DNA of 36,802 nucleotides, taken from positions 1 to 36,802 of the forward strand of contig JADZEM010000124.1 of the NCBI GenBank assembly GCA_020850535.1. Reading direction: 5' to 3'. The position numbers were made by a program, and so were the translations under genes. This document shows, one piece after another, positions 2,187 through 36,340 of the stretch. A model generated the notes under the pieces. That model made no database searches and was not told the DNA's origin. It was given only the letters and a program-made list of their open reading frames with translations. Source of the stretch: Chloroflexota bacterium (GTDB lineage Bacteria > Chloroflexota > UBA6077 > JACCZL01). How positions within the stretch are numbered: the first letter of the stretch is position 1; every line of letters begins with the position of its first letter.

Positions 2187-2684
2187 GCTGGACTCCAGGT
2201 GCGTCCGACTCGGAGGTTGGGGCAGCGAGCGGACTCACCGGCCTGACCGCTCCTCTGTCATCGTAGGCGTCCAGCAAGCAGCCTGGATGTGACACCTGTC
2301 ACTGCTTCAGCAGGATGCCACCCGCCCGTTCGGGTGGGACGGGATCGCGCGGCCAGCCGACCGTTCGGCGTGCGCATCCGCACGCCGCGCCACGGCCGAT
2401 GGCTGCTCGTCAGACGGCCTTCCGCCGCCCGGTCCCTTCGAGTGGCGCTCGACAGCCGCGCACGGCAGGCTACATTCCCGCTGCAACCCCGCACAGAGAT
2501 GAGAGCGCTCATCTTCGGGAAGATGTGGAACGCAGGCCGGGACATTTGTCCTGCCCATCCCACCCCTGGCCGGGCGTACCGTGTAGCTAAGGGTCTTGCG
2601 AGGCGACGAGTGACGCGGATGACCCGACTCCACACGACCCGCCGCCCCGTGCTGTTCTTGACCCGGAAGGTTGGGACGCACGCT
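2187..2684. other. divergent intergenic region fmdE-like / dmsA, 498 bp
   Basis: No convincing gene lies here. Open frames in this stretch are in-frame extensions of dmsA or antisense shadows. The notable content is the CRP/FNR-type inverted repeat described separately. The dmsA leader would be long if transcription starts near that operator (about 385 nt to the dmsA ATG), so dmsA probably has a nearer promoter that I could not identify. Confidence 0.6.
2253..2303 (-). promoter_or_regulatory. candidate CRP/FNR-type operator and promoter
   Basis: TGTGA-N6-TCACT at 2288-2303 matches the CRP-family consensus TGTGA-N6-TCACA at 9 of 10 positions. It contains the perfect inverted repeat GTGAC-ACCT-GTCAC. 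On the minus strand, TACGAT (2265-2260) is a fair -10 hexamer; a start near 2253 would place the operator centre at about -42, the class II activator position, with no good -35 hexamer. This would drive the FmdE-like gene with a 67-nt leader and could also act on dmsA. Candidate only; no regulator gene of this family is in the window. Confidence 0.5.
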
Positions 2685-5087
2685 ATGTCACCACATTGGA
2701 CACTCGATCGGAGAACATTCCTCAAGTGGTCTGGTGCGCTTGCGGGTGTGACCGCCGCGGAGGCCCTCGCCTCCGAGGGGCACATCCCGTTCTCGGTCCT
2801 GCCGGCTGCCGCCGACGGACGCGCATCGCTGCCACTCCCGCTGCTCGCCGCGACCGCTCCCGCGGCTGAGCGCGTGGTCGCCACCGGCTGTGGCAACAAC
2901 TGCGGCGGACGCTGCGTACTGCTCGCCCATATCAAAGACGGCGTCATCACCCGCATCGAGTCCGACCCCGATCCGGACCTGCCGGACCAGCCGCAGCTAC
3001 GCGCCTGCCTGCGTGGGCGGTCCTACCGGCAGATCGTCTACCACCCGGACCGCCTGAAGTACCCCATGAAGCGCGTCGGCGCGCGCGGCGAGGGCAAGTT
3101 CGAGCGCATCTCCTGGGACGAGGCGACCACGACGATCGCCGAGCAGGTCAAGCGCGTCACCGCGCAGTACGGCCCGCTCGCCATCTACGTCAACTACGGT
3201 TCTGGCATCTCGGGCATCAATCGCGGCGACGCCTGGGCGCGTCGGCTGCTCGGCCTCTACTCTGGCGATTTCCTCAGCTACTACGGAACCTACTCCTCAG
3301 GCCAGACCAGCTACGCCACGCCCTTCACCTACGGTGTCGGCAGCACCGGCAACATGTGGTCCGACCTGGTCAACTCCAAGCTGATCATCCTGCTGGGCCA
3401 CAACCCTGGCGAGACCGTCTTCGGCACGAACAGCATGTACTGGCTGCGGAAGGCCCGGGAGGCCGGCGCACGCATCATCAGTATCGATCCACGCTACACC
3501 GACACCGCCGTCGCCATCGCCGACGAGTGGATCCCGATCCGCCCCAGCACCGACAGCGCCCTGATGGACGCGATGGCCTTCGTCATCATCACCGAGGGCA
3601 TGGCCGACCAGCAGTTCCTGGAGACCTATACCCTCGGCTTCGACGAGGCCCACATGCCGGAGGGCATCCCGGCCGGCAACTCCTACAAGAACTACATTCT
3701 GGGCGAGGCTGACGGGCAGCCGAAGACGCCCGAGTGGGCCGAGCCGATCACCGGCATCCCGGCCAGCACGATCCGCCAGCTTGGCCGCGAGTACGGCTCG
3801 ATCAAGCCGGCCGCCTTCGTGGCCGGCTACGGGCCGCAGCGCCACGCCAACGGCGAGCAGAGCGTCCGCTCCAACTCGGTCCTGCCGGCGCTGACGGGCA
3901 ACGTCGGCGTGCACGGCGGCTGGGCCGGTGGGGCGGGCGGCACCCCGGCCGGCGCGAAGCTCGGCGCGATCCCGTTCGAGGGTGGCAAGGTCAAGATCTC
4001 CTGCTTCATGTGGACCGACGCGGTCATCCGTGGCAAGGAGATGACGGCCAAGACTGACCTGATCCAGGGCGCTGACAAGCTCCCGACCAACGTCAAGTTC
4101 ATCTTCAACCTGGCCGGCAACACCCTGGTCAACCAGCACTCGGACATCCTGCGGACCCAGAAGATCCTCAAGGATGAGTCGATGGCCGAGTTCATCGTCA
4201 GCTCGGACATCTTCCAGACGCCGAGCACGCTGTACTCGGACCTGGTTCTGCCCGGCCCCAGCATCTTCGAGCGCCCGAACATCGTCACGCCGTGGGGCTA
4301 CGGCGAGTACATCATCTACCTGCACCAGCTCCTCGAGCCGATGTACGAGACGCGCAACGAGTACGACTGGATGAGCGACGTCGCCCAGAAGCTGGGGGTC
4401 GGCGAGAGGTTCACCGAGGGCAAGACGGCGGATGACTGGCTGCGCTTCGTCACCGAGGCGACGGCCAAGGGCCATCCCGAGTGGCCCGGCTTCGAGGCCT
4501 TCAAGGAGAAGGGCTCGTTCAAGCTCTGGTTCAAGACGCCGGTCGTCGCCTTCGAGAAGCAGATCAAGGATCCTGCCAACGCCCCGTTCACGACGCCCAG
4601 CGGCAAGATCGAGATCTTCTCGGAGCGGCTCTGGAAGCGCGGCCAGCTTGACACGGTGCCGGCCATCCCCAAGTACGTGCCGGCCTTCGAAGGCCCGGCC
4701 GATCCGCTGATCGCGAAGTTCCCGCTCCAGCTCGTCAGCTTCCACTTCAAGCGGCGCGTCCACTCCACCCACGACAACAACCCCTGGATGATCGAGATGG
4801 CCCCCCAGGTGTTGTGGGTCAACCCGATGGACGCCCAGGCGCGCGGCATCGAGGACGGCGATCAGGTAAAGGTCTTCAACGACCGTGGTGCGACGCTCGT
4901 GCCGGCCAAGGTGACCCCGCGCATCATGCCGGGCGTGCTGGGCCTGCCACAGGGCGCCTGGTTCACCCCCAACGCCCAGGGGATCGACGCCAACGGCTCG
5001 GCCAACGTCCTCTCGACGCAGCGTGGCAGCTACATGAGCAACTCGAACCCGCAGCACGACAACCTCGTGCAGCTCGTCAAGGCGTAG
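2685..5087 (+). CDS. dmsA: DMSO reductase-type molybdopterin catalytic subunit DmsA, 800 aa
   Basis: This is a bis-MGD oxidoreductase of the DmsA/YnfE branch, predicted to reduce an S- or N-oxide using electrons from DmsB. The N-terminus carries a twin-arginine export signal (DRRTFLKWSGALAGV, residues 8-22), so the enzyme is expected outside the cytoplasmic membrane. The FS0 [4Fe-4S] cysteines are C69, C73, C77 and C108. The GTYSSGQ segment (about residues 201-207) fits the Ser Mo-ligand position of this branch, and the C-terminal cofactor-binding domain ends in NSNPQHDNLVQLVKA. The ATG at 2685 places the Tat motif correctly; the frame is open upstream to 2289, but that part is non-conserved. 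It is first in dmsABC plus chaperone. Substrate cannot be read from sequence: DMSO, TMAO, selenate or another oxyanion are all possible. Confidence 0.88.
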   Translation: MSPHWTLDRRTFLKWSGALAGVTAAEALASEGHIPFSVLPAAADGRASLPLPLLAATAPAAERVVATGCGNNCGGRCVLLAHIKDGVITRIESDPDPDLPDQPQLRACLRGRSYRQIVYHPDRLKYPMKRVGARGEGKFERISWDEATTTIAEQVKRVTAQYGPLAIYVNYGSGISGINRGDAWARRLLGLYSGDFLSYYGTYSSGQTSYATPFTYGVGSTGNMWSDLVNSKLIILLGHNPGETVFGTNSMYWLRKAREAGARIISIDPRYTDTAVAIADEWIPIRPSTDSALMDAMAFVIITEGMADQQFLETYTLGFDEAHMPEGIPAGNSYKNYILGEADGQPKTPEWAEPITGIPASTIRQLGREYGSIKPAAFVAGYGPQRHANGEQSVRSNSVLPALTGNVGVHGGWAGGAGGTPAGAKLGAIPFEGGKVKISCFMWTDAVIRGKEMTAKTDLIQGADKLPTNVKFIFNLAGNTLVNQHSDILRTQKILKDESMAEFIVSSDIFQTPSTLYSDLVLPGPSIFERPNIVTPWGYGEYIIYLHQLLEPMYETRNEYDWMSDVAQKLGVGERFTEGKTADDWLRFVTEATAKGHPEWPGFEAFKEKGSFKLWFKTPVVAFEKQIKDPANAPFTTPSGKIEIFSERLWKRGQLDTVPAIPKYVPAFEGPADPLIAKFPLQLVSFHFKRRVHSTHDNNPWMIEMAPQVLWVNPMDAQARGIEDGDQVKVFNDRGATLVPAKVTPRIMPGVLGLPQGAWFTPNAQGIDANGSANVLSTQRGSYMSNSNPQHDNLVQLVKA

Positions 5088-5112
5088 CCTGACAGAAAGG
5101 AGGCGCCCGGCA

Positions 5113-5730
5113 ATGGCAACCCAACTGGGGTTCTACGTGAACCAGCAATACTGCATGGGGTGCATGACCTGTCAGGTCGCCTGCAAGGACAAGAACAACC
5201 TCAGCCTCGGCGTCAACTTCCGCCGCGTGCAGGAGGTCTCCGGCGGCAGCTTCGCGAAGCAGGGTGAGGCCTACATCCCGAACGTCTTCGCGTACTGGAT
5301 CAGCGTCGCCTGCAACCACTGCACCGAGCCGAAGTGCGTGGAGAACTGCCCGACGGGGGCCATGCACAAGAACGCTGAGGACGGCATCGTCTCCGTCACC
5401 AGGGAGGAGTGCATCGGCTGCCAGTACTGCACCTGGAGCTGCCCGTACGGCGCGCCGCAGTACGACGAGAAGCAGGGCAAGACCTTCAAGTGCGATATGT
5501 GCGCTGACCTGCGCTCCGAGGGCAAGAACCCGGCCTGCGTGGACGCCTGCCCGATGCGCGCTATCGAGTACGGCCCCATTGAGGAGCTGAAGGCGCGGCA
5601 TCCGGATGCGGTGGTCGCGTTCCAGGGCCTGCCCGATCCGAAGCTCACGAAGCCCAACACGATCTATTCCCCGCACCGGTCGGCGGTCATGCTGGCCGCC
5701 ACGCCGGGAATGAAGGCGGAGGTGCGGTAG
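5113..5730 (+). CDS. dmsB: DMSO reductase iron-sulfur subunit DmsB, 205 aa
   Basis: This is an electron-transfer subunit with four cysteine groups for four [4Fe-4S] clusters: CMGCMTCQVAC, CNHCTEPKCVENC, CIGCQYCTWSC and CDMC...CVDAC. Length and order match DmsB/NrfC-type proteins. It has no signal peptide of its own, so it is probably carried across the membrane with Tat-exported DmsA. A strong ribosome site, AGAAAGGAGG (5094-5103), precedes the ATG. It lies 25 bp after dmsA and 2 bp before dmsC, consistent with one transcript passing electrons from the membrane anchor to the Mo subunit. Confidence 0.9.
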   Translation: MATQLGFYVNQQYCMGCMTCQVACKDKNNLSLGVNFRRVQEVSGGSFAKQGEAYIPNVFAYWISVACNHCTEPKCVENCPTGAMHKNAEDGIVSVTREECIGCQYCTWSCPYGAPQYDEKQGKTFKCDMCADLRSEGKNPACVDACPMRAIEYGPIEELKARHPDAVVAFQGLPDPKLTKPNTIYSPHRSAVMLAATPGMKAEVR

Positions 5731-5732
5731 CC

Positions 5733-6578
5733 ATGTTGGAGAAGGAGTTGCCACTCGTCTTCTTCACGCTGCTCGGACAGGCGGCAGGCGGCCTCTTCCT
5801 GGCTGGCCTGCTGGCGCGGGAGTACCTGACTCGGCGGCTGCCCGCCAGCGAGGCGCTTGCCGAAACACGCCGGGCGATGCACTGGTCGCTGGGGCTGCTG
5901 ATCGTGGCGGCGCTCGTCTCGTTCGTCCACCTCGGCTCGCCGCTGGGGGCGTTCCGGGCCGCCAACAACGTCATGCACTCGGCGCTGGCCCAGGAGATCG
6001 TGGCGCTCGGCGCGTTCGGGGCGCTGCTGGTGGCCAGCGTAGCGCTCGACTACCGTGGCTGGCCGCAGCCGCTGAGCAGGATCGTCGGCTGGCTGACGGC
6101 GGCGGCGGGGCTGGTGCTGGTGCTGGCGATGAGCCGCATCTACCAGAGCACCATCATCCCGGCCTGGACCTCGTCGTTCACGCCCGTCTCGTTCGTGGCA
6201 GCCTACCTGGTGCTGGGCGGCGGCCTGCTGCTGCTGACCCTGCCGCGCGCCGCGACGAGTGTGGTGGGCATCGCGGCGGCGGCCGGACTGCTCGGGGTGG
6301 TCAGCCAGGTGGTGGCGCTGCCGTTCTACCTTGCCGAACTGGGAGGAGGCTCGGCGTTCGCGCGGCAGGCGCTGACCGTCCTGACCGGCGACATGGTCCT
6401 GACGCTCGGGGCCAGCGTGGTGCTGCTGCTGCTGGCGGCGGCGGTGATGGCCCTGCTGTGGGTGCGTCACACGCTCGCGCCGAGACTGGTGTACCTCGCC
6501 GTCTTCCTGGCTATCGCCGGGGAGCTTGCCGCGCGGGCTGCCTTCTACGGGTCAGCCGTGCCGATTCGGGTCGGGTGA
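5733..6578 (+). CDS. dmsC: DMSO reductase membrane anchor DmsC, 281 aa
   Basis: This integral membrane protein has about eight hydrophobic segments and matches the DmsC family (N-terminal ELPLVFFTLLGQAAGGLFLA). It anchors DmsAB and oxidises menaquinol. HLGSPLGAFRAANNVMHSAL (about residues 68-87) is the typical DmsC loop holding a conserved His near the quinol site. The start codon lies 2 bp after the dmsB stop, with a GGAGGT ribosome site inside the end of dmsB, so the two are probably translationally coupled. Confidence 0.87.
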   Translation: MLEKELPLVFFTLLGQAAGGLFLAGLLAREYLTRRLPASEALAETRRAMHWSLGLLIVAALVSFVHLGSPLGAFRAANNVMHSALAQEIVALGAFGALLVASVALDYRGWPQPLSRIVGWLTAAAGLVLVLAMSRIYQSTIIPAWTSSFTPVSFVAAYLVLGGGLLLLTLPRAATSVVGIAAAAGLLGVVSQVVALPFYLAELGGGSAFARQALTVLTGDMVLTLGASVVLLLLAAAVMALLWVRHTLAPRLVYLAVFLAIAGELAARAAFYGSAVPIRVG

Positions 6579-6581
6579 GTC

Positions 6582-7220
6582 ATGCTCGAACAGCTGGCGC
6601 CGGCTGATACCCGGCTCGTCCGGGCGCTTGTGTACCGCTTCCTGGCGACGATGTACCTTGCCGAGCCGGACGCCGGCTGGCTGACCGGCCTCGCGCGGGA
6701 CGGCCTGCTGGACGAGTTCCCCGTCCAGGACGAGGCCGGCGTCATCGACCGCGGCCTCGGGCTGCTGCGGCCATCGTTGCAGCGGTTGGCGGCTGAGGGC
6801 CGCCCGGCCGAGGCCGAGGCGGCGGCGATCCGCCGGGACTTCTACACCCTCTTCGCGGGGCCGGGCCACGTGCCCGCCCCACCGTGGGAGTCGGTCTACC
6901 GCACTGAGGAGCGGCTGCTCTTCGACTGGCCGACGCACGCCGTACGGCAGGCCTACCGCACGATGGCGATCCGTACGGCCCGCCCCGACGAGGCCGACGA
7001 CCACATCGGGCTGGAGTTGCTGTTCCTGGCCCTGCTGGACGAACGGGCGGCCGGCGGCGATGCGTCGGCGGCAACGGCGCACCGTCAGTTCCTGCGGGAG
7101 CACGTGCTCCAGTGGGCGCATCGCTTCTGCGAGGACGTGCGGGCCGCCGCCGAGACGGACTTCTGGCGCGGGGTGGCCCTGGTGACCAGCGGGGTGCTGG
7201 CGCTGGAGCATGGCGTGTAG
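6582..7220 (+). CDS. TorD/DmsD-family molybdoenzyme chaperone, 212 aa
   Basis: This is an all-helical cytoplasmic chaperone of the TorD/DmsD/NarJ superfamily, which binds the Tat signal and apo-form of the partner Mo enzyme until the cofactor is inserted. Recognisable parts are DFYTLFAGPG (about residues 86-95), the PPWESVYRTEERLLFD segment, the DEADDHIGLELLFLALL motif that corresponds to the family E-x-x-DH signature, and HVLQWAHRF near the C-terminus. It starts 3 bp after dmsC and is followed by a terminator, so it closes the dms operon. DmsA is the obvious client. Confidence 0.87.
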   Translation: MLEQLAPADTRLVRALVYRFLATMYLAEPDAGWLTGLARDGLLDEFPVQDEAGVIDRGLGLLRPSLQRLAAEGRPAEAEAAAIRRDFYTLFAGPGHVPAPPWESVYRTEERLLFDWPTHAVRQAYRTMAIRTARPDEADDHIGLELLFLALLDERAAGGDASAATAHRQFLREHVLQWAHRFCEDVRAAAETDFWRGVALVTSGVLALEHGV

Positions 7221-7381: not shown

Positions 7382-7975
7382 TTACCGTCCCAGCACCACG
7401 GGGGCGCACACGATCAGGTCGTTGCCGGTCCACACGTCGAGCTGGTAGCTGCCGCCTTCCAGCCCGGGGAACCGGAAGCTGCCGTCGCCGTCCGCGTCCA
7501 TCTCGGCGCGGTGGCTGCCGTTCTCCAGCAGGACGGTCGCCTGTGGGACCGGCTCGCCGTCCCAGGAGACCTGCCCCGTCAGCAGATGCCGACTCGGGCG
7601 GGAGTCCGGTGCGCCCTGGATCATCACCTCGTACTCGTCGGCGGCGAACAGGAGCGTGTGCCCGAGCGCGGTCGCGCCGCGGACGCCCACCCGAGCCGTG
7701 CGTGGGCCCAGGTTGTAGACCAGCGTCGCCACCAGCCGGCGCAGCGGGCTGTCCGTCTGCTCGACGGCGGCGGCTGGGCGCGGCTGCTGCGCGATCTGGC
7801 AGGCCCGGATCAGTTGCTGCTGCGACACCAGCGGCAGGCCATCTGCTTTCAGCACGGCAGTCAGTGCCTCGACGGCATCGGCTGCGAGCCGTCCCTCCCC
7901 CAGCAGCTGAAAGATCGGCGCGACCTGTCGTGCTCCGTGCAAGACGCCCTCCGCCGTCGGATTCTGCTCGATCAT
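7382..7975 (-). CDS. paralogue of the CHAT-operon beta protein, with helical N-domain, 197 aa
   Basis: I do not recognise a named family. The C-terminal half (about residues 90-197) aligns with nearly all of the 123-aa protein at 13765-14136. Shared features are LLF-x-A-x-EYE, L-x-GQ-x3-DGEPVP-x-A-x3-LE-x-G, a D-x-x-G-x-F turn, and a final GD/GN-x-LI segment. The GQV-x-GEPVP pattern resembles carboxypeptidase-regulatory-like (CNA-B/Ig-like) beta folds. The N-terminal ~90 residues look helical, rich in Ala and Leu, and have no counterpart in the shorter paralogue. The ATG at 7975 follows a purine-rich CAGGGGGCACGAG stretch; upstream in-frame starts lie in less protein-like sequence. It is cytosolic by appearance, with no signal peptide. 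Same strand as the CHAT operon but separated from it by a repeat nest. Confidence 0.7.
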   Translation of the reverse strand: MIEQNPTAEGVLHGARQVAPIFQLLGEGRLAADAVEALTAVLKADGLPLVSQQQLIRACQIAQQPRPAAAVEQTDSPLRRLVATLVYNLGPRTARVGVRGATALGHTLLFAADEYEVMIQGAPDSRPSRHLLTGQVSWDGEPVPQATVLLENGSHRAEMDADGDGSFRFPGLEGGSYQLDVWTGNDLIVCAPVVLGR

Positions 7976-8206
7976 GTTCTCGTGCCCCCTGGAGCCGCCA
8001 CCACGCACGCACCCGCTGGCCGCCCGCTGCGCGGCCTGGACGCCTGCGTTCACTAGAGAGGTCTGCCGCGAGGATGCCATCCGTACAATTTCGGCGGCGC
8101 GCCCATGCAGCCACGCACTCGTTCCAACGGGGTGAGACGCCCGCAAGAGCCGCCCAGATCGGATATCTCTGCCAGGGCCAGCATCCGTGCATGGCACCAG
8201 GCAACA

Positions 8207-8423
8207 CAGGGCGATTGCACGTTGGGCTTGCCGTGCAGCGTCGTCGGGGCTTGAAAGCCCCGCCTACCATCCTGCAGTCGCTTCGCGACGCCCCAGTCTC
8301 ACCCGTCGATGCTCTGCCCGGTGCCCGTCGCGCAGCGACGGAACGACTGTAGGCGGGGGTTTCAACCCCCGCCTGCGCGTTTCGCGACGGTGTGGGAACA
8401 CCGACGAACATGCAATCGCCCTG
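8207..8423. mobile_element. MITE-like element with 13-bp terminal inverted repeats
   Basis: CAGGGCGATTGCA at 8207-8219 is exactly inverted as TGCAATCGCCCTG at 8411-8423. Inside, a second inverted pair marks 8246-8373: the left side has GGGGCTTGAAAGCCCC then GCCTAC, the right side GTAGGCGGGG then GTTTCAACCCCC. An 11-bp direct repeat CCAGGCAACAC lies at 8197-8207 and 8424-8434, at the outer edges, resembling a target duplication. A solo copy of the right end, ATGCAATCGCCCTG, occurs at 7237-7250 just after the chaperone gene. There the similarity continues into AACACCCC, so part of the apparent target duplication may belong to the element. No coding capacity. Confidence 0.65.
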
Positions 8424-8438
8424 CCAGGCAACACCCCA

Positions 8439-8598
8439 TTGTCATCCTGAGTGGAGCGAGCTTGCGAGCGGAACGAAGGATCTCACCCGCTGGCGCGACA
8501 CTCGACGGTCGGCGGGCGAGGTGCACGTTGACGGCCAACAGGTAGCACAAGCGTTGACGGTCGGCGGGTGAGGTCCTTCGCCCCGCTCAGGATGACAA
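8439..8598. repeat. TCATCCTGAG-family element with 13-bp terminal inverted repeats
   Basis: TTGTCATCCTGAG (8439-8451) is exactly inverted as CTCAGGATGACAA (8586-8598), bounding a 160-bp element. The interior contains diverged direct copies of a GTTGACGGTCGGCGGG-like box (one near 8495-8520, one near 8553-8571) followed by GTGAGGTCCTTCG. A related partial copy lies at 14-123 and a minimal hairpin version at 32346-32374. No open frame suggests a protein. Confidence 0.75.
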
Positions 8599-8645
8599 AT
8601 GGGGGTCGCGACCTCTCCTCAGCGCTTCTCTGACCGTCTGCCGAC

Positions 8646-10592
8646 CTACACCACTGTCGGGCTGGTTACCGGTGCAGCAGTGGACAGGGTGAGCGAGGAC
8701 GGTGGCACAGCCGGGCCGCTCGCCTCGACGTCGGCCGGCGTCAGTGCGAGGTGGCGCTCCAGGAAGTCCGCCACCTGAGGGTAGGCTGTCAGCCGATTCT
8801 TCAGCTTCGCCAGCCCGTGCCCCTCGTCCTCGTAGCGCAGGTACTCCACCGTCCGCCCGCGCGACTTGAGCGTCTGGACGATCTGCTCGGCCTCGTGGAT
8901 CGGGACGCGCGGATCGTTCGCCCCGTGGATCACCATCAGCGGCGCGACGATCCTGTCTGCCTTGTGGATCGGGGAGATCGCTTCCAGCACGGCGCGGTCG
9001 TGGGCCAGCGAGCCGTACTCGACCTCCCGATGATGCCGCCGCCACGGGCCGGTGTTCTCCAGGAACGTCACGAAGTTGGCGATGCCGACGATGTCCACGC
9101 CAGCCGCCCACAACTCCGGGTTCTCGGTGAGAGCCGCCAGCACCATGTAGCCGCCGTAGCTCGCGCCCATCACCGCGAGCCGCCGCGGATGGGCCAGCCC
9201 GGCCCGGGCCGCCCAGCGCGCCGCCTCTGCGAGATCGCGGACGGAGTCTGGGCGTAGCGCGACGTCGTCCAGGTGGACGTACGGCGTCCCGTAGCCGAGA
9301 CTGCCGCGCACGTTCGGCGCAACCACCACAAAGCCCCGGTGGACGAAGTACTGGATGACGCCGTTATACATCGTCCGAATCTGCGACTCCGGGCCGCCGT
9401 GCATGTAGAAGAGGGCCGGGGCCGTGCCGTCCGCCGTGTGTTCGTGCGGCCGGTAGACGAAGGCCGGGATCTCGCGGCCGTCGAACGTCGGGTAGTGGAC
9501 CAACTCGGCCGGGGCCAGGCGGTCCAGGTCGAGGCCGCCGGCCCAGGTGTCCGTCACCCGGCGCGGCGCACCGTCGGTCTGCACCGTCTCGGGCGTGGCA
9601 ACGTAGAGGCTGGCCGGCCGGTCCGCCGCCGAGAAGGTGAATGCCAGCTGCCGGCCGTCCGGCGACCAGGAGAACGTTGGCAGCCACTTGTACGGCTCGT
9701 AGGCCTGCCCAGTCGGGATCGGGATGGCCGTCTCCTGGCCGGTCGCCATCTCGTGGACCCAGACCTCGGAGTAGCCGTCCACGTTGATCTGATAGGCGAT
9801 CTTGCTCCCGTCCGGAGCGACGGCGACGTCGTCGATGTCCCAGTCCGGGCAGGCCAGCCAGCGGAGGCTGCCCGTGTCCGTGTCGAGGGCGGCCAGCCCC
9901 AGGAAGTCGCGCCCCTGGTCCGTGACGCAGTAGGCGGTCCGGCTGTCCGCGCCCCAGGCAAGCTGGCGGTAACGGGCCGGGGTGGGTGCGGCCGGGGTGT
10001 GGCCGGCCGTCAGGCGGCGGGCCACGCCGCTCGCCAGTTCAAGGACGTACACCGCGTGCTCCCAGGCCGAGCCGGCCTCCTGGAGCAGCAGCCGCGCGCC
10101 ATCTGGCGAGACGCCGCAGGCGTAGTAGGCGCCCTCTTCCTGGCCCTCGCCGGGGAAGACGTGGCGGCGCTCGCCCGTTTCAACGTCCAGCAGGTAGGCG
10201 TCGAAGAAGCGGGCGTTGCGCTCGTTGGAGGCGTAGGCGATCTGCCGCCCGTTCGGGTGCCACCCGCCGAACTGGTGGATCGCGTCGGGCATGTGGGTGA
10301 GCAGGCGCGGCGTCACGCCGGGCCGCTCGATCAGTGAGAGCTGGGTGCGCTCGTTGCCGCCCACGTCGGCGGCCACGACCAGTCGCTCGGAGCCGGGGCC
10401 GGGCCAGGCGCCCGTCACCCGGTCGAACGAGACGCCGACCGGCTCCGGCCAGCGCCCTTCAGCGTCGAGTCGGACGGACCACAGGCCAGGCGCACCAGTC
10501 AGGTCGGACAGGAAGAACAGCCGTGTGCCGTCCTGGCTGAAGCGCGGCCCGAAGGCCGAGCGCGCGCTGAGAAACTGATCAAGTCGATACAT
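8646..10592 (-). CDS. S9 family peptidase (acylaminoacyl-peptidase/prolyl oligopeptidase type), 648 aa
   Basis: This is a serine peptidase with an N-terminal beta-propeller (about residues 1-370, with TolB/WD-like strands such as FSQDGTRLFFLS and VSPDGARLLLQEAG) and a C-terminal alpha/beta-hydrolase. The triad is readable: S478 in GASYGGYM, D560 in HGANDPRVP and H592 in DEGHGLAKL. Such enzymes cleave short peptides or N-acylated residues in the cytoplasm; no signal peptide is present. The ATG at 10592 is chosen because MYRLDQFLSARSAFGPRFS opens the propeller; 15 upstream in-frame residues are low-complexity. It lies 68 bp after the TPR-CHAT stop on the same strand, so it may be the fourth gene of the sigma/CHAT operon. 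No terminator is visible between them. Confidence 0.88.
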   Translation of the reverse strand: MYRLDQFLSARSAFGPRFSQDGTRLFFLSDLTGAPGLWSVRLDAEGRWPEPVGVSFDRVTGAWPGPGSERLVVAADVGGNERTQLSLIERPGVTPRLLTHMPDAIHQFGGWHPNGRQIAYASNERNARFFDAYLLDVETGERRHVFPGEGQEEGAYYACGVSPDGARLLLQEAGSAWEHAVYVLELASGVARRLTAGHTPAAPTPARYRQLAWGADSRTAYCVTDQGRDFLGLAALDTDTGSLRWLACPDWDIDDVAVAPDGSKIAYQINVDGYSEVWVHEMATGQETAIPIPTGQAYEPYKWLPTFSWSPDGRQLAFTFSAADRPASLYVATPETVQTDGAPRRVTDTWAGGLDLDRLAPAELVHYPTFDGREIPAFVYRPHEHTADGTAPALFYMHGGPESQIRTMYNGVIQYFVHRGFVVVAPNVRGSLGYGTPYVHLDDVALRPDSVRDLAEAARWAARAGLAHPRRLAVMGASYGGYMVLAALTENPELWAAGVDIVGIANFVTFLENTGPWRRHHREVEYGSLAHDRAVLEAISPIHKADRIVAPLMVIHGANDPRVPIHEAEQIVQTLKSRGRTVEYLRYEDEGHGLAKLKNRLTAYPQVADFLERHLALTPADVEASGPAVPPSSLTLSTAAPVTSPTVV

Positions 10593-10660
10593 CAGCTCGA
10601 TCCCACTCCCCCAACGTGCTCCCCAGCACCCGCTCATGCGGCAGCCCCCACTGCCACCCG

Positions 10661-13600
10661 CTATCGTCCGCTGGTCAGGCCGTCGCCCACCACCACGAAC
10701 GGCGCCCAGAAGTACGGATGGTTGTACTGCTCGCGGATCGCCAGCATCGCCGTCCGCAATGCCTCGGCTGGCGGCGCGCCGTCGCGCAGGCTGCCGTAGA
10801 ACCGCCCCATCAGGCGGGCCGTGCTCTCGTCGCTCACCGTCCAGAGGCTGGCGACCACCGAGGCGCAGCCGGCGCTCAGCAATCCTCTCGTCAGGCCCAT
10901 CACCTCGTCACCGGCCGTGATGCCGCTCACGCCCGTCTCGCAGGCCGAGAGCGTCACCAGTTGCGCGCCCCGCGCCACCTCGGCCAGATCCTTGACCGTC
11001 AGCCAGGCGTCCGCCAGCTTGATCGAGGAGAAGCCGGGGTTGTCGGCGCGGAAGACGCCGTGCGTCGCCAGGTGGAGCACGTCGAAGGTTCCGGCGTGCC
11101 GCTTGAGTACCCTGGATGTCGCGCGCGGCCCCTGGGCCACCTTCGCCGAATCCCAGGTTGCACTGACGGCCGCAACCTCTTCGGGGACGGACGGCAGGCT
11201 CGGATCGTCGATCCCGACGACCATCGCCCGGTCGCCGATGGGGCGTGCCACGCCCCGGCAGACGTGCAGCACGGCGGCGCTCGGCGCGACGGTGATGGCG
11301 TACCGGTCGATCAGGTAGCCCGCGCCGTCGTGGAAGGCGTGGAACGGCAGGCCGTGCAGCGCCCCGTGCGGCACCACGATCAGCGAGTCGCCCTCGCGCA
11401 GGAGGTCTTCGACCGGGCCGACGATCAGGGTGTAAAGCTGATTGAGGCAGCGGTCGATGCCCTTTCGCAGCATCTCGAGCTTGCTCATCACGTACCCGGT
11501 GCCGAGCGCGCACTTGCCGATCTGGAAGCTGAGCTTGTCCACCAGCGCTTCGGCCTCGTCGAGTGGCGCGACCGGCCGCAGCTCGACCTCCGCGCCGCGC
11601 CGCACGAACGCCACCAGCTCCTGCCCGACGCTGTAGTACTCGATCAGGACATGGTTCTCTGGGAGGGGCGTCTCGGCCAGCGCCACCTGATCGACGTGCC
11701 CCCCGTTGCCGGCCGCCGGCCGCTCGCTGCCGCCGGCCAGCTCGAGCTGCCGAGCCGCCCGCGCCAGGGCCGCCTCGAGGTCGGCAATCGAGTCGCCGGT
11801 GCCGGACCTGGGCGACTGCGCCAGGGCGTCGCCGGTCGGGGCCACGTTCCCTTCGTAGGCCGCGAGGTAGGCCGCGCTCAACTGGGTGCGGAGGTCGCGG
11901 ACCCGCTGGGCCAGCCGCGACGCTTTCGTGCGCCGCGACCTGGCCGGTCCGCTTGCGCCGGCCAGCACGTCGTCCAGCAGCGCCCGCGACTTCGACCGCT
12001 CGACGTACCGGTACGCCTCGGCCACGGACTCCGGCGACGGCTCGCGCACCAGCAGCCCGACCAGCCGCTCGTAGACGTCAGCCTTGTCGGTCAGGAAGGC
12101 GACTTTCAGCTCGGCGGCCACGGCCCGCGAGCGGACGGCTTCCAGGTGCTCGACGGCCTTGCGGTAGCTTTCGGCGGCCTCGGCCGGCGAGGCGGACTCG
12201 AGCAGCGCCCCGAGCGCCTCGTGCGCCTGGAACAGCAGGTGATCGGCGTTGAGGGTGCTGGCGGCGTCGCGGGCGCGCTCGTAGCAGGCGGTGGCCTGCT
12301 CCAGATCCCCGAGCAGCGCCAGCACTGCCCCCTCGACCAGCAGGCCGAAGGCCGCACGGTCGAGCGCGCCGGCCCCTTCGAGCGAGCCGGTCGCGGCGCG
12401 GCACCCGTCGAGGTGCTGCAACAATTCGTCGGCGTTCACGGATTCCGGGGCCAGCGTGGCTGTCCGCGTCAGCAGGCCGGCCTCCTGGAGCCGCGCCGAG
12501 TCTTCCCAGAGACGGTTGCCCATCTCGCCGAAGATGGCGCGGGCCTCAGCGGTGTGCGCCCGGGCGAGATCCACGTCGCCGGCCGCCTCGGCCAGCCGCC
12601 CAGCCCAGAGCAGCGCCTGCCCCAGCTCGAACGGCATGCTCAGCCGCCGCAGCCCCTCGATGGCCCGCTCGGCCGCCGCGCTGGACTCCTCGCGGAGGTT
12701 CAGCGCGATGCAGGCCGGCAGCATCTCAAGGTCGACCAGCCGGGCGCCCCGGTCGACGCCCAGGCTCTCGTAGATCTGGCCGGACTCGGTCAGCGCCTGG
12801 AGCGCCCGGCCGTAGTCGCCACGCCGATACGAGAGGATGCCGATGTTCATCAGCGTCAGCGCGACCTCGGTCTGGAGACCGAGCTGCCGGCGGATGCGCT
12901 CGGCGGCCCGCAGGTGGCTCAGCGCCTCCTCATACTGCCCGAGATCGACCAGCACATTGCCGAGGTTCTGCTCGACGTCCGCCAGGAACGAGCGCTCGCC
13001 CAGGCGGCGGAACTCGTTGCGGGCGTCGCGGTAGGCGCGGGCGGCGTCGCGCAGGCGGCCCATCGGGCGGTAGAGCGTCCCGAGGTTCAGCGACTGCTTG
13101 GCCGCCGAGAGGTCGTCGCCGCGCTCCAGGAAGAAGGCGCGGCTGTCCTGGGCCAGCGTGACGGCGTCGTCGTACCGGCCCTTGTAGCGCAGGGCCGTGA
13201 CGTGCCCGACCTGGGTCCGCGCGGTCTCGGCGGGCAGCCCGAGCGCGTCGAAGCGTGACTCGGCCTCTTCGTACTGCTGGATGGCGTCGTCGTACTGGCC
13301 CAGAAAGCGCAGGGCGTGCGCGTGCGAGCGCATCGCCCGGGCGATGCCTTCGGCGCAGTCGGCGGCCCGCTCCTGGGTCAGCCAGGATGAGGCCGTCTCC
13401 AGCCCGAGGCACGGGTTGCTGCGGTTGAGCTTGTCGATCGAGGCGGCCGTCGCGGTCCACTGCTGGTAGCGCTGGGCGTGCAGCGCTTCGGCGTCCTGTA
13501 CGGACTGCCCGGGCGCCACGCAGGCCGGCGTCGGGATGGCCGGCTGCGGCAGCGGGCTGCTCGGAAAATCGACAAAGGTGTGCGGCCGAGGCAGTGGACT

Positions 13601-13762
13601 GAGGATGCCGCGCCGGCTGCCCGAGCGCGTCCGGATCGGGCGGTCCGCCGGGCCATCTCCCCCTCTCCGCGTCGGAGAGGGGGTCGGGGGGTGAGGTCCG
13701 CCCGCGGGGCTGGGGGCGTGAGGTCCGCCCGCCCGGCCGGCAGCCTGAGGTCTCTTTGCCAT
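10661..13762 (-). CDS. TPR-CHAT protein (caspase-like peptidase), 1033 aa
   Basis: The protein has three parts. Residues 1-80 are Pro/Gly/Arg-rich and disordered-looking. Residues about 105-560 are tandem tetratricopeptide repeats (e.g. ALRFLGQYDDAIQQYEEAES, NLGNVLVDLGQYEEALSHLR). The C-terminal ~270 residues are a CHAT domain (caspase HetF associated with TPRs). The peptidase dyad is intact: H901 in LHLATHGVF and C941 in TLSACETG; the domain closes with WTVSDEST and NHPYFWAPFVVVG. CHAT domains are clan CD cysteine peptidases that cut partner proteins; the TPRs are usually the sensor or docking part. The start is 2 bp after the stop of the 123-aa gene, with AGGAG about 13 nt upstream. A palindromic repeat is read in frame as residues 23-35. 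Partner genes are an ECF sigma factor and the 123-aa protein, suggesting proteolytic signalling to transcription. Confidence 0.92.
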   Translation of the reverse strand: MAKRPQAAGRAGGPHAPSPAGGPHPPTPSPTRRGGDGPADRPIRTRSGSRRGILSPLPRPHTFVDFPSSPLPQPAIPTPACVAPGQSVQDAEALHAQRYQQWTATAASIDKLNRSNPCLGLETASSWLTQERAADCAEGIARAMRSHAHALRFLGQYDDAIQQYEEAESRFDALGLPAETARTQVGHVTALRYKGRYDDAVTLAQDSRAFFLERGDDLSAAKQSLNLGTLYRPMGRLRDAARAYRDARNEFRRLGERSFLADVEQNLGNVLVDLGQYEEALSHLRAAERIRRQLGLQTEVALTLMNIGILSYRRGDYGRALQALTESGQIYESLGVDRGARLVDLEMLPACIALNLREESSAAAERAIEGLRRLSMPFELGQALLWAGRLAEAAGDVDLARAHTAEARAIFGEMGNRLWEDSARLQEAGLLTRTATLAPESVNADELLQHLDGCRAATGSLEGAGALDRAAFGLLVEGAVLALLGDLEQATACYERARDAASTLNADHLLFQAHEALGALLESASPAEAAESYRKAVEHLEAVRSRAVAAELKVAFLTDKADVYERLVGLLVREPSPESVAEAYRYVERSKSRALLDDVLAGASGPARSRRTKASRLAQRVRDLRTQLSAAYLAAYEGNVAPTGDALAQSPRSGTGDSIADLEAALARAARQLELAGGSERPAAGNGGHVDQVALAETPLPENHVLIEYYSVGQELVAFVRRGAEVELRPVAPLDEAEALVDKLSFQIGKCALGTGYVMSKLEMLRKGIDRCLNQLYTLIVGPVEDLLREGDSLIVVPHGALHGLPFHAFHDGAGYLIDRYAITVAPSAAVLHVCRGVARPIGDRAMVVGIDDPSLPSVPEEVAAVSATWDSAKVAQGPRATSRVLKRHAGTFDVLHLATHGVFRADNPGFSSIKLADAWLTVKDLAEVARGAQLVTLSACETGVSGITAGDEVMGLTRGLLSAGCASVVASLWTVSDESTARLMGRFYGSLRDGAPPAEALRTAMLAIREQYNHPYFWAPFVVVGDGLTSGR
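13659..13696. repeat. palindromic CCCCCTCTCC repeat inside the TPR-CHAT reading frame
   Basis: CCCCCTCTCC (13659-13668) and GGAGAGGGGG (13674-13683) form a 10-bp stem with a 5-nt loop, followed by TCGGGGGGTGAGG to 13696. This is the same sequence family as the arms of the big hairpin at 20556-20732. Here it is translated as part of the Pro/Arg-rich N-terminus of the CHAT protein (residues 23-35). Confidence 0.8.
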
Positions 13763-13764
13763 GC

Positions 13765-14136
13765 CTATGCGGCTCCTGCCAGCGCCGTGCCGATGTCGAA
13801 CGGCGGCACGATGATCAGCATGTCGCCGGCCTGTGCCCAGAAGCCGCAGCGCACAGCCAGCCCCTGCACCAGCTTGAAGCGGCCCTCGAGGTCCGTCTCG
13901 GTTGAGACGCCGTCCTCCAGGGAGATGATGGCGGCCGGGACCGGCTCGCCATCGGCCAGCAGCTGCCCGGCCAGCCGCAGCCAGCCGGCCGCTTCGCCGG
14001 CCACGACTTCCAGCACGATCTCGTACTCGGCTGCCGTGAACAGCAGACGGCGCTCATGGCCGCGCACCGTACGGACGCCGTACGGCAGCGAGACGGTCTG
14101 GGTGTCGTACAGCACTTCAGCGGTCAGCGAGGGCAT
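13765..14136 (-). CDS. small beta-rich protein between ECF sigma and CHAT genes, 123 aa
   Basis: I do not recognise a named family. The sequence looks like one compact beta domain: GVRTVRGHERRLLFTAAEYE, then LRLAGQLLADGEPVPAA, a LEDGVSTETDLEGRFKLVQG hairpin, and a final GDMLIIVPP strand. The G-x-x-x-DGEPVP and D-x-x-G-x-F pattern is that of carboxypeptidase-regulatory-like/Ig-like domains. There is no signal peptide or transmembrane segment. The ATG at 14136 overlaps the sigma gene by 20 nt and has GGGAG 7-8 nt upstream; its stop is 2 bp from the CHAT start. This tight coupling puts it where an anti-sigma factor is often encoded. It may bind or inhibit the sigma factor, or be a CHAT substrate; neither is shown. 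A paralogue lies at 7382-7975. Confidence 0.8.
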   Translation of the reverse strand: MPSLTAEVLYDTQTVSLPYGVRTVRGHERRLLFTAAEYEIVLEVVAGEAAGWLRLAGQLLADGEPVPAAIISLEDGVSTETDLEGRFKLVQGLAVRCGFWAQAGDMLIIVPPFDIGTALAGAA

Positions 14137-14722
14137 CGCGCAACTCCCGAAAACACCTTCCTCGGATCGGTCCGATGCTGTTGGCCGAGCAGCCCAGCTC
14201 CTGGGCGATCTCGGCGTAGGAGACGGTCTCGTCAAAGAAGAGGGCCTTGAGCAGCTTCCGGCAGCGCGGCGAGAGCGTGGCGAAGGCCGCCCGCACCCGC
14301 AGGCTGGTCTCCCGCTCGATGGCGTCGTGCTCGGGGTCCGCGGCCGGGTCCACCATGATGTCGAGCGCGCCATCCGGCTGCTGGCTCTCGTGGCGGCGCG
14401 CCAGCCGCTTGCGGGCGTCCCAGGCGGTTCGGCCGGCCGTCGTGACGAGCCATGGCCCGAGGCGTTCTTGCGAACGGACGCTCGCAAGACTGCGCCAGAG
14501 TGCGACCCAGACATCCTGGAAGGCGTCGGCGGCCTCTTCGGCCGGCAGGTGGTAGCGGCGGATCACCGCTTCGACCAGCCGCGCGTACCGCCCGATCAGC
14601 TCGTGCCAGGCGGCGTCGTCGCCGTCGAGGCAGCGTCCGACCAGCTCGCCGTCGTCTGCGGCGTGGGCGGCAGCGCCGGGGACGGGCAGGCTGGATGGCG
14701 GCTGCACGGACTCTGCACGCAT
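14117..14722 (-). CDS. ECF-type sigma-70 factor, 201 aa
   Basis: This is a short sigma factor with region 2 (about residues 25-95: DGDDAAWHELIGRYARLVEA, AADAFQDVWVALWRSL) and region 4 (about residues 145-200: FATLSPRCRKLLKALFF, YAEIAQELGCSANSIGPIRG). It recruits RNA polymerase to a small regulon. The ATG at 14722 is chosen because GGGGAGGAGGAG lies just upstream; the GTG at 14773 has no ribosome site. No transmembrane anti-sigma gene follows. Instead the next genes, overlapping or nearly touching, are the 123-aa beta protein and the TPR-CHAT peptidase. Control by proteolysis or by the beta protein is the natural guess. No clear autoregulated promoter could be picked out upstream. Confidence 0.88.
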   Translation of the reverse strand: MRAESVQPPSSLPVPGAAAHAADDGELVGRCLDGDDAAWHELIGRYARLVEAVIRRYHLPAEEAADAFQDVWVALWRSLASVRSQERLGPWLVTTAGRTAWDARKRLARRHESQQPDGALDIMVDPAADPEHDAIERETSLRVRAAFATLSPRCRKLLKALFFDETVSYAEIAQELGCSANSIGPIRGRCFRELRDALADR

Positions 14723-15152
14723 GCGCTGCTCCTCCTCCCCCACAGGACGCTCTTCCAGGTGCGCGGCGGACACTGGCGGACTGAGTGGTGTGTGCGACGA
14801 CGTCGAGCCTGCGCCACCCCTGCGCTACGACCCGCACTCCCACAGGTGGAAGCCGACTCGGCATCTTGACGGAAGCCCCAGATGATAGGGACCCATCGAG
14901 CGCCGGCCGCCCTGGCCTCGCGTCACTCCTCCGCATGTCTCAACGCACAGAAGGAGGCCGAAGGGACAGCCACGCCCGATCCATCCTGGCTGCTCCGGCG
15001 AGACTGGCCCAGGATCCCCCCTGTTGAACAGGCACAGGTGCGCCGATACTCAAGAAGGGACTGCGAAAGAGCGATGTCCATCTGGTCACCTTCTGGCGAC
15101 CGGCTCCGTTGGTCTCAAGCAGGGGGCATGGGGACATGGGGAGTGCCGTCTG
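14723..15152. other. divergent intergenic region sigma / GGDEF-EAL, 430 bp
   Basis: I see no credible gene, repeat or clear promoter. The GGDEF-EAL frame is open leftward to a TTG at 15024, so part of this stretch could be coding if that start is used. A TTGACG hexamer at 14866-14871 has no -10 at the proper distance. Confidence 0.5.
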
Positions 15153-17183
15153 GTGATACAGACCGTGCGCGACATTGGCGTCGGTGGTGGTAGCGCAAGC
15201 GTGGCCATCGAGCCGCCGCGTGCCCTGGCCGACACGCTGACCACGGGCGCACAGGTGGGCTGGCAGACATTCGACGTGCTGCACGACCTGGCTGGCCTCG
15301 TCATGCTGGCGCTCGTCGTGCTGGCGACCCTGATGGCGTTGCGGTCCGTGCGCGCGCGCCGCGCCGCGACAACCGCTGCATCCAAGCTGACGGCCCTCGA
15401 AGAGTACAGCAAGGCCCGCCGCCAGCATGAGGAGCGCTTCCGCTCGCTGGTGCTCAACACCTCGGACGTCATCACCATCCTGAGCGTGCACGGCGGCATC
15501 GCCTTCCACAGCCCGTCTGCCAGCCGCATCTGGGGCTACTCGGCGGACGCGCTGAAGAACGCCAGCCTCTACACGCTGGTGCACGCCGAGGATGTGGAGA
15601 TCGCGCGGGACCTGCTGGCCCAGGCGCTGACCCGTCCGCGCCTGAGCATGGCCGCCGAGATGCGGCTGCGCCTTGCGGACGAGTCGTGGTGCTACTTCGA
15701 GGTCGTGGCGACGAACCTGTTGCGCGATCCGCGTGTGAACGGCATCGTCACCACTTTCCGCGACATCACCGAGCGCAAGGAGTTCGAGCAGGCCCTGCGC
15801 TACCAGGCGTTCCACGACTCGCTGACGGACCTGCCGAACCGAACCCTGTTTGTGGACCGTGTCGAGCGGGCGATGGCGCGGGCCCAGGCGGCCGGCCAGG
15901 AGGGCGGCGTCGCCGTGATGTTCCTGGATCTGGACAACTTCAAGGTCATCAACGACAGCCTGGGGCACGCCGTTGGCGACCAATTGTTGAACACCCTGGC
16001 CGAGCGCATCAAGGAGTGCCTGCGCCACGAGGATACGCTGGCTCGCCTGAGCGGCGACGAGTTCGCGATCCTGATCGAGGACGTGTGGACGGAGGACGGC
16101 GCGCGCCGCCTCGCCGAGCGGATCCAGGAGCAGATGGTCTCGCCGTTCATCTTGAACCGGCGGGAGGTCTTCGCCAGCCTGAGCATCGGCATCGTCGTGA
16201 GCGGCCCCTCGCACAGCCGCCCGGACGATCTGCTGCGCGACGCCGACCTGGCGATGTACCGCGCGAAGGCGAACGGCAAGGCCCGCTCGGAGGTCTTCGA
16301 CCACACGATGAACGCTCAGGCCTCGGAGCGGCTGGCGCTGGAGACGGCGTTGCGGCGGGCCATCGAGCGGCAGGAGTTGCGGGTCTACTACCAGCCGCTG
16401 GTCCGCATCGACACGGCGGCGGTGGTGGGCTTCGAGGCGCTGGTGCGCTGGCAGCATCCGGATCGGGGGTTGATCTCCCCGGCCGAGTTCATCCCGCTGG
16501 CGGAAGAGACGGGGATGATCGTGCCGATTGGCGCGTGGGTGCTGGAGGAGGCCTGCCGGCAGGTCCAGGTGTGGCAGGAGGAGCGCTGCAACGGGCGCGG
16601 CCTGCTGCTGAGCGTGAACGTCTCGGCGCGACAGTTCCAGAGCCCGGACCTGGTGGAGACGGTGGCGTGGGTGCTGGAGGAGACGGGCTTCAACCCGACG
16701 CACCTGAAGCTGGAGCTGACCGAGAGCATGATGATGCACGACGTGGAGCGGACCATTCAGCGGCTGGACGAGCTGAAGGGCCTCTCGATCCAGCTGGTGG
16801 TGGACGACTTCGGGACGGGGTACTCGTCGCTGGCGTACCTGCGGCGCTTCCCGATCTCGGTGCTGAAGGTGGACAAGTCGTTCATCTGGCGGCTCGGGAC
16901 GGACCCCGGCGACGACGCGATTGTGCGGTCCATCGTGACGCTGGCCGGCGACCTCGGCATGCAGGTGGTGGCGGAGGGGATCGAGACGGCGGAGCAGTTG
17001 GAAGCGTTGCGGGCGCTCCAGTGCGACTACGGGCAAGGCTACTATTTCAGCCCGCCGGTCCCGAGCCACCTGGCGGAGACGTTCGTCACGCCGAGCGCGG
17101 GCATCCTGCTGCCGGTGCCGCTGGCGCCCCGCACCGCCACCGCGGCTTCTGAGAACGCCGCCGCCGAGGATCTGGCGTCGTAG
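15153..17183 (+). CDS. membrane-anchored PAS-GGDEF-EAL cyclic-di-GMP protein, 676 aa
   Basis: This dual-domain c-di-GMP protein has one transmembrane helix (about residues 44-63), a PAS domain (about 90-205, ending in VTTFRDITERKEFE), a GGDEF domain and an EAL domain. The active-site motif of the first is SGDEF (codons 16050-16064) instead of GGDEF, with LDLDNFKVINDSLGH intact; SGDEF is a common variant and some are active. The EAL domain looks catalytic: EAL (16434-16442), the second-strand N in LLLSVNVSARQ, ELTES, VVDDFGTGYSS, KVDKSF and VAEGIET. The GTG at 15153 has GGGGAG 9 nt upstream; a TTG at 15024 would add 43 residues with no protein-like character. It probably tunes c-di-GMP in response to a PAS ligand. 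It stands alone, divergent from the sigma operon. Confidence 0.87.
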   Translation: MIQTVRDIGVGGGSASVAIEPPRALADTLTTGAQVGWQTFDVLHDLAGLVMLALVVLATLMALRSVRARRAATTAASKLTALEEYSKARRQHEERFRSLVLNTSDVITILSVHGGIAFHSPSASRIWGYSADALKNASLYTLVHAEDVEIARDLLAQALTRPRLSMAAEMRLRLADESWCYFEVVATNLLRDPRVNGIVTTFRDITERKEFEQALRYQAFHDSLTDLPNRTLFVDRVERAMARAQAAGQEGGVAVMFLDLDNFKVINDSLGHAVGDQLLNTLAERIKECLRHEDTLARLSGDEFAILIEDVWTEDGARRLAERIQEQMVSPFILNRREVFASLSIGIVVSGPSHSRPDDLLRDADLAMYRAKANGKARSEVFDHTMNAQASERLALETALRRAIERQELRVYYQPLVRIDTAAVVGFEALVRWQHPDRGLISPAEFIPLAEETGMIVPIGAWVLEEACRQVQVWQEERCNGRGLLLSVNVSARQFQSPDLVETVAWVLEETGFNPTHLKLELTESMMMHDVERTIQRLDELKGLSIQLVVDDFGTGYSSLAYLRRFPISVLKVDKSFIWRLGTDPGDDAIVRSIVTLAGDLGMQVVAEGIETAEQLEALRALQCDYGQGYYFSPPVPSHLAETFVTPSAGILLPVPLAPRTATAASENAAAEDLAS

Positions 17184-20555: not shown

Positions 20556-20732
20556 CCGGAAGGGCCCTCACCCCCCGGCCCCGGAAGGGCCCTCACCCCC
20601 CGACCCCCTCTCCCTGTGCGCGGGAGAGGGGGAGACGCACGAGGCCGTCGTTGCTCCCCCTCTCCCGCGCACAGGGAGAGGGGGCCGGGGGGTGAGGGCC
20701 CTTCCGGAGCCGGGGGGTGAGGGCCCTTCCGG
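20556..20732. repeat. giant inverted repeat, 79-bp arms, inside the nitrate-type cluster
   Basis: Arm 20556-20634 pairs with arm 20654-20732 at 77 of 79 positions by eye, with a 19-nt loop. Each arm contains two copies of a GGAAGGGCCCTCACCCCCC unit followed by a CCCCCTCTCCC segment. It lies between the cytochrome b stop (20534) and the Mo-subunit start (20779). The transcript would fold into an extremely stable rod. The same sequence family appears at 13659-13696. Confidence 0.92.
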
Positions 20733-20778
20733 GGCCGGGGTGAGGGTCTGGCAAGTTCACCAGGAAACCAGAGGCACG

Positions 20779-23088: not shown

Positions 23089-23113
23089 ACGGTTCTGGGA
23101 GGAGCGTGCGCTG

Positions 23114-35971: not shown

Positions 35972-36061
35972 CGACTGAGGCTGTCCCGAGGCGCGGGGCG
36001 TTGCCCAGCTTCCGGCCCCCGCGCGACAATGAATGAGGGCGGGCGGCATCAGGAGGGAGCT

Positions 36062-36340
36062 ATGGCAGACGGCGAGGTCAGGGCATTCGGGCAGTACATC
36101 GTGGCCGACCCGGAGGTCTGCCACGGGCAGCTCACATTCCGGGGGACGCGTATCCTCGTGGAAGTGGTCATCCGTCAGATCGCGCGGGGCATGGACTGGG
36201 ACGAGATCGTACGGGAATGGCGCGGGAGTATATCGAAGGCCGCGATCGCCGAAGCCGTGCTGCTTGCAGGATCCGCCCTGCGCGCCAGCGTTGATGAGTC
36301 GCGGCTGGATACGCTGACGCTCGAACGTCGCGCTGGATGA
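36062..36340 (+). CDS. DUF433-family antitoxin, 92 aa
   Basis: The protein has the DUF433 core: YIVADPEVCHGQLTFRGTRI (a beta-hairpin), V-x3-IRQIARGMDWDEIVREW, and a second helix-turn-helix-like segment ISKAAIAEAVLLAGSAL. DUF433 proteins are small DNA-binding antitoxins paired with PIN-like toxins. AGGAGG (36051-36056) lies upstream of the ATG at 36062; an in-frame ATG at 36029 is less well placed. The stop overlaps the next ATG by 4 nt, the tight coupling typical of toxin-antitoxin pairs. Confidence 0.87.
   Translation: MADGEVRAFGQYIVADPEVCHGQLTFRGTRILVEVVIRQIARGMDWDEIVREWRGSISKAAIAEAVLLAGSALRASVDESRLDTLTLERRAG

Follow-up and report, generated by a model that had tools for sequence, protein, structure and literature searches.

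The locus described here raises the question of whether a caspase-like protease can govern an extracytoplasmic function (ECF) sigma factor outside a CRISPR (clustered regularly interspaced short palindromic repeats) system. It lies in the window, the whole 36,802-nucleotide stretch that was analysed (contig JADZEM010000124.1 of a Chloroflexota bacterium, assembly GCA_020850535.1), whose minus strand carries in tandem the genes for an ECF sigma factor, a small beta-sandwich protein (beta1), a predicted protease with tetratricopeptide repeats and a CHAT domain (TPR-CHAT), an S9 peptidase and, further downstream, a second beta protein (beta2). A preliminary description, made from the letters of the DNA, had proposed the first four as a candidate proteolysis-controlled sigma system without CRISPR. 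The unit of sigma factor, small protein and TPR-CHAT proved real, its neighbourhood being conserved in dozens of genomes, and it belongs to an apparently undescribed gene module that several bacterial phyla share and that is present in the window in divergent form. TPR-bearing CHAT proteins occur widely; to our knowledge, type III-E CRISPR and a handful of further cases are the only ones with a known target. Here, the adjacent gene is a candidate target for each member of the module and sigma activity is the read-out, which makes the question directly testable; Rubrobacter taiwanensis, which is in culture, and a strain of Modestobacter are among the hosts that could be used.

Regarding its conservation, a TPR-CHAT profile was run on named genomes and on 400 genomes of Chloroflexota, 73 of which matched, and the neighbouring genes were called with profiles of the sigma, beta, S8 and S9 proteins. 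Sigma factor, beta protein and TPR-CHAT were found together in 65 loci, usually in that order, from Chloroflexota, Acidobacteriota, Rubrobacter/Modestobacter and a planctomycete. From the Chloroflexota sample, 60 TPR-CHAT loci were fetched, with the arrangements sigma-beta-CHAT (26), sigma-beta-CHAT-S8 (12), beta-CHAT-S8 (4), beta-CHAT (3), sigma-CHAT (4, with beta fused to sigma), CHAT-S8 (4) and CHAT alone (7); a separate beta gene occurred in 45 of the 60, and a same-strand sigma gene beside CHAT in 42. The 18 strongest loci of the named genomes, among them Acidobacteriota metagenome-assembled genomes, R. taiwanensis, other Rubrobacter and Anaerolineae, comprised 11 of the type sigma-beta-CHAT-S8, three sigma-CHAT-beta-S8 and one each of S8-sigma-beta-CHAT, sigma-beta-CHAT, beta-CHAT and CHAT alone, so that both sigma and beta were present in 16; full modules were also found in a Modestobacter and a planctomycete. 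Such an order, repeated across dozens of genomes, is more than chance. As the CHAT match weakens the module becomes rarer, with CHAT alone in 54 of the 79 named loci, and the association is therefore specific to this subfamily and not to CHAT proteins at large.

The genome of the window (7.65 Mb in 227 contigs), which its relatives also place in Chloroflexota, has one other CHAT gene only, at the end of contig C32. The assembly breaks off within the gene of a secreted protein in which GDGGGY occurs at least 22 times, for the most part in units of 33 nt: its repeats end both C32 and C174 and occur nowhere else in the genome. For this reason the two contigs are very probably adjacent, and joining them would produce a second unit of the order CHAT - repeat protein - beta - sigma, since on C174 a beta protein comes after the repeats and then the sigma gene closest to that of the window (49% identical). 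A relative (G002) has on one contig CHAT, a gap with a short secreted peptide frame, beta and sigma.

Table 1. Coordinates of the module in the window and of the repeat protein of the second locus
Feature	Position	Strand	Supporting data
ECF-type sigma factor, 201 residues, first gene of the module	14117..14722	-	Pfam Sigma70_r2 E 4.9e-11, Sigma70_r4 E 1.5e-5; TIGR02937 83 bits, over cut-off
beta1, 123 residues, member of the anti-sigma/beta family reduced to the beta-sandwich half	13765..14136	-	30% identical to beta2
TPR-CHAT, predicted protease, open reading frame of 1033 residues	10661..13762	-	CHAT E 1.3e-65; TPR_12 E 5e-26, six TPR_12 stretches
S9 prolyl-oligopeptidase-type peptidase	8646..10592	-	Peptidase_S9 E 6.1e-45, PD40 repeats; no obvious signal peptide
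beta2, 197 residues, short helical N-terminus and beta sandwich	7382..7975	-	beta1 paralogue; CarboxypepD_reg E 1.6e-7 in beta half
25-bp palindrome CCCCCTCTCCGACGCGGAGAGGGGG, repeat dispersed in the genome, here within the doubtful first part of the CHAT frame	13659..13683	.	genome count
GDGGGY protein	L012:1-484 (C32 left end) + L013:11732-12152 (C174 right end)

The sigma factor has sigma2 and sigma4 domains only, according to Pfam and TIGR02937, as expected for the ECF type; its gene overlaps that of beta1 by 20 nt, in line with the preliminary description. That account had also stated that no transmembrane anti-sigma factor is encoded, and none was found in the window; what it had missed is that the beta family is a family of soluble zinc anti-sigma proteins. 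In most relatives the beta protein carries a zinc anti-sigma domain at its N-terminus, recognised in one locus (L055) as zf-HC2 (PF13490) with an E-value of 5.6e-9. The HxnCxxC motif is kept in 41 of 65 family members, and in this zinc subset the histidine and the two cysteines are invariant; against solved structures, the subset profile matched RslA (3hug, E 7e-7), DdvA (8rlz, 6e-5), ChrR (8e-5) and RsiW (0.005). A membrane-like segment is absent from 62 of the 65 proteins. In four loci beside CHAT, sigma and zinc domain are encoded in one open reading frame (L238:9400-10950, L239:4714-6210, L242:9066-10595, L243:9315-10781), and the three that were read (L238, L239 and L243) also include the beta domain; an internal methionine ahead of the zinc domain in these three may permit separate translation. 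These data argue strongly for the anti-sigma assignment of the family, and the most likely role of the module's beta protein is that of a soluble anti-sigma factor. A locus on another contig (L011:8018-8954, C225) has two tandem beta-family proteins and no sigma or CHAT gene recognised within 12 kb.

The window copies depart from this pattern, and the H-xn-C-x2-C motif of the domain, present in the family, is found in neither of them. beta1, the small protein that had been put forward as a possible target, aligns solely to the C-terminal half of the family and lacks the N-terminal anti-sigma domain with its helices. The longer paralogue beta2, a gene that the original four-gene array had left out, keeps short N-terminal helices that align to the anti-sigma domain. 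In its AlphaFold2 model, four helices at residues 8-63 (pLDDT mostly 50-80) precede the sandwich (pLDDT mostly >90).

As for the TPR-CHAT protein, it is a predicted protease with a His/Cys dyad, and the dyad is intact as first reported: H901 (codon 11062-11060) and C941 (codon 10942-10940) are both invariant across 31 sequences. The AlphaFold2 model (pLDDT 84.8, pTM 0.84) consists of a long TPR superhelix followed by CHAT, with low confidence in the loop after C941 (residues 943-951). The best fold match of the model was Csx29 in its substrate-bound complex (8eey_B, E 1e-15), ahead of separases, further structures of Csx29 and DdvA (E 6e-13 to 3e-12); the analogy to the type III-E protease drawn at the outset therefore holds, the nearest solved relatives being Csx29 enzymes and the CHAT-bearing anti-sigma factor DdvA. 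The start of the gene is another matter. The first 78 residues of the open reading frame are disordered in the model, and within them the annotated frame reads through a palindrome that has 16 sites in the genome (allowing at most one mismatch; a reversed control pattern had none). Given this disorder and the dispersed palindrome, the start at ATG 13762 is doubtful, and with it the 2-bp gap after beta1 that had been noted. The sole other in-frame start ahead of the first TPR helix is GTG 13519; the protein likely begins there, with about 952 residues, and the gap would then be about 245 bp. An identity as HaaT, of the cyclophane ribosomally synthesized and post-translationally modified peptides, was rejected, as the NCBIfam score was far under the cut-off and the similarity was confined to the TPR part. 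In a PADLOC search CHAT matched BovA weakly (3.6e-6) and one locus (L088) hit a subtilase model; nothing else matched, and no defence assignment resulted.

Two known systems come closest. In Myxococcus xanthus, the sigma factor DdvS controls a CRISPR-Cas system. Like the module, DdvS/DdvA (PDB 8rlz, 8rot, 8rw5) combines an ECF sigma factor with a zinc anti-sigma domain of the same family, and the CHAT domain of DdvA keeps its His and Cys, as in the window protein; DdvS is active once DdvA is inactivated (PMC4374960). DdvA, however, is one membrane-spanning chain, whereas the module has the anti-sigma factor and CHAT as two proteins, both apparently soluble, adds a beta sandwich to the former and has a peptidase gene linked to it; a DdvA-type anti-sigma factor, with anti-sigma domain, transmembrane helix and CHAT in one chain, was for this reason rejected as an identity. 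The type III-E system (Cas7-11, Csx29, Csx30, CASP-sigma) likewise places a TPR-CHAT protein of matching fold beside genes for a sigma factor and a sigma-binding protein; upon activation, the catalytic residues of Csx29 are repositioned and it cuts Csx30, the inhibitor of the ECF sigma factor CASP-sigma (PMC10028731). The module differs in having no linked cas genes and no recognisable Csx30, its inhibitor being a zinc anti-sigma/beta protein, and in its longer chain and TPR array, and it occurs in many genomes without CRISPR linkage. RslA, ChrR and RsiW share the anti-sigma domain, with H-x3-C-x2-C in most members of the beta family; what sets the family apart from them is a carboxypeptidase-regulatory-like beta sandwich joined to this domain, together with the pairing with TPR-CHAT, and the window copies have in addition lost the zinc ligands. 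Finally, the available text on the Caspase/EACC2 conflict systems (Kaur et al. 2021, PMC8195603) links ECF sigma genes to caspase-clan peptidases and TPR proteins; it features EACC2-caspase and DUF1822 domains, and no zinc anti-sigma/beta protein or CHAT partner. Protease-gated control of ECF sigma factors is a known kind of system. A description of the module was not found in the open-access literature, subscription papers being outside the search, so that its novelty is provisional.

Taken together, these comparisons make us lean towards a soluble protease-linked switch, in which the anti-sigma/beta protein would hold the sigma factor, TPR-CHAT would cut this inhibitor and the sigma factor would be freed. 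The sigma factor would be kept inactive by a cytosolic protein that combines an anti-sigma domain with a beta sandwich. In the window copy this role would most likely fall to beta2, and beta1 would be a companion split off with the beta domain alone. The TPR superhelix may sense a partner or ligand as its signal and, once engaged, would render the caspase-like CHAT domain competent to cut the anti-sigma/beta protein; the freed sigma factor would then transcribe its own operon and other targets, possibly including the linked peptidase. If this cleavage occurs, the release of a sigma factor by a caspase-like enzyme would be a common device of bacteria, one not peculiar to CRISPR, and type III-E would seem to have recruited it.

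Several observations weigh against this switch. The N-terminus of beta2 has no zinc ligands and is of low confidence in the model; its match to the zinc anti-sigma family (hhalign probability 91%) takes in part of the shared beta strand, and the hits of a fold search with beta2 were all generic beta sandwiches (Zcp, DUF4198, FN3), with no anti-sigma factor among them. Because the window copy lost the zinc ligands, our confidence in beta2 as a working inhibitor is moderate, against the strong assignment of the family. Eleven of the 60 Chloroflexota loci have neither a sigma nor a beta gene beside CHAT, some of them through contig ends. The strong correlation of the distances of sigma, beta and CHAT across the 65 loci (r 0.88-0.91; permutation maximum 0.20), which in itself favours the switch, partly reflects shared vertical descent. 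Lastly, no convincing shared -35/-10 motif was found upstream of the two operons of this genome and of 58 sigma genes: pairwise, only GC-rich matches without pattern appeared, and a 37-locus subset was slightly above shuffles, with matches that may stem from the start-site sequence of close relatives.

The main alternative, possible though rather doubtful, is that CHAT and the peptidase are outputs: an ordinary pair of ECF sigma and soluble anti-sigma factor would sense stress directly (through zinc, a thiol or a ligand of the beta domain) and control an operon of two proteases with other targets. Zinc anti-sigma factors such as RsrA and ChrR do work without a dedicated protease, and some sigma/beta pairs of the present family stand without CHAT (L056, L063). 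The fourth gene speaks for this alternative as well. In relatives it encodes a subtilase (S8; E 6e-40 in L055, 1e-19 in L082), often with a signal peptide, and thus resembles an output. The window has in that slot the S9 gene, which begins 68 bp past TPR-CHAT as first described; no comparable S9 gene was found beside CHAT in the other surveyed loci. The expected four-gene order was consequently recovered for sigma-beta-CHAT and not for its last member: the S9 enzyme, absent from that slot elsewhere, is a replacement or a neighbour outside the conserved core. The role in clearing fragments once suggested for it finds no support, since the subtilases of relatives are often secreted and a cytosolic clean-up enzyme is not a conserved feature. 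Against CHAT as an output, most loci have it directly next to the anti-sigma gene, and it is kept where S8 is absent (the 26 sigma-beta-CHAT loci of Chloroflexota); moreover, DdvA joins anti-sigma domain and CHAT in one chain and Csx29 cuts a sigma inhibitor, two comparisons that suggest a regulator.

Less probable is a non-proteolytic role, in which TPR-CHAT would be a scaffold or co-anti-sigma factor, as the CHAT part of DdvA may be, its TPR/CHAT body binding the beta domain and a conformational change holding or releasing the sigma factor. The PDB describes DdvA as a transmembrane anti-sigma factor, with the CHAT part within the anti-sigma chain; on the other hand, the dyad and the residues around it do not vary among 31 diverse members, a conservation that a scaffold would not require.

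It is very improbable that the module is a type III-E CRISPR (Craspase) system or its remnant, in spite of the like parts (sigma factor, sigma-binding protein, TPR-CHAT) and of a fold closest to Csx29. Membership was rejected, as the Csx29 model NF041237 gave 49.3 bits against a cut-off of 300 and no cas genes are linked; the sole Cas1 of the genome is on contig C23 (G000:C23:79864-80739, L253), where neither CHAT gene lies, and the beta family profile had no Csx30 match at E<=1 among PDB sequences, a result compatible with remote homology. As for neighbourhood by chance, the S9 peptidase, found in this position nowhere else, may be a chance neighbour, but for the four genes as a whole such an origin is hardly credible, and for sigma-beta-CHAT it is refuted by the conserved order, the three being combined at 65 loci across several phyla and once more at the second locus of the same genome.

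A bolder extension of the switch, which we regard as unlikely, would make the module the ancestral CRISPR-free circuit and the source of both DdvA-type anti-sigma factors and the sigma arm of type III-E. TPR-CHAT would here sense short peptides, among them repeat peptides that come from the secreted subtilases encoded alongside (such as NSWQVG, SPWDPTG and SPFGVEG) or from repeat proteins (GDGGGY), in a peptide-sensing, caspase-gated sigma switch.

Subtilases beside CHAT carry short tandem amino-acid repeats in loci L088, L092, L094, L095, L097, L102, L115 and L230. The repeats are lineage-specific (NSWQVG x4, SPWDPTG, SPFGVEG, SPWEVGG, GFNSWAG, NEGNPAP) and, in L088, L092, L094 and L097, lie ahead of the catalytic Asp; a tandem repeat was detected in 18 of 41 S8 proteins, against 3 of 41 after shuffling. 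Their copies vary at synonymous codon positions, so that the peptide sequence itself seems maintained. A second type, octamers like QSTVVILD, is found between the catalytic Asp and His of subtilases from Acidobacteriota (L086, L089, L091, L096, L100). Downstream of CHAT in loci without S8, no credible stand-alone repeat peptide was found except at the second locus of the window's own genome.

Regarding the surroundings, the module is flanked by two molybdopterin oxidoreductase operons (window 2289-7220 and 20692-24279), the first with a nitrate reductase delta-type chaperone at 6582-7220. A PAS-GGDEF-EAL protein is encoded at 15024-17183, divergent from the sigma gene, and a DUF433/DUF5615 pair at 36029-36723 is likely a toxin-antitoxin module.

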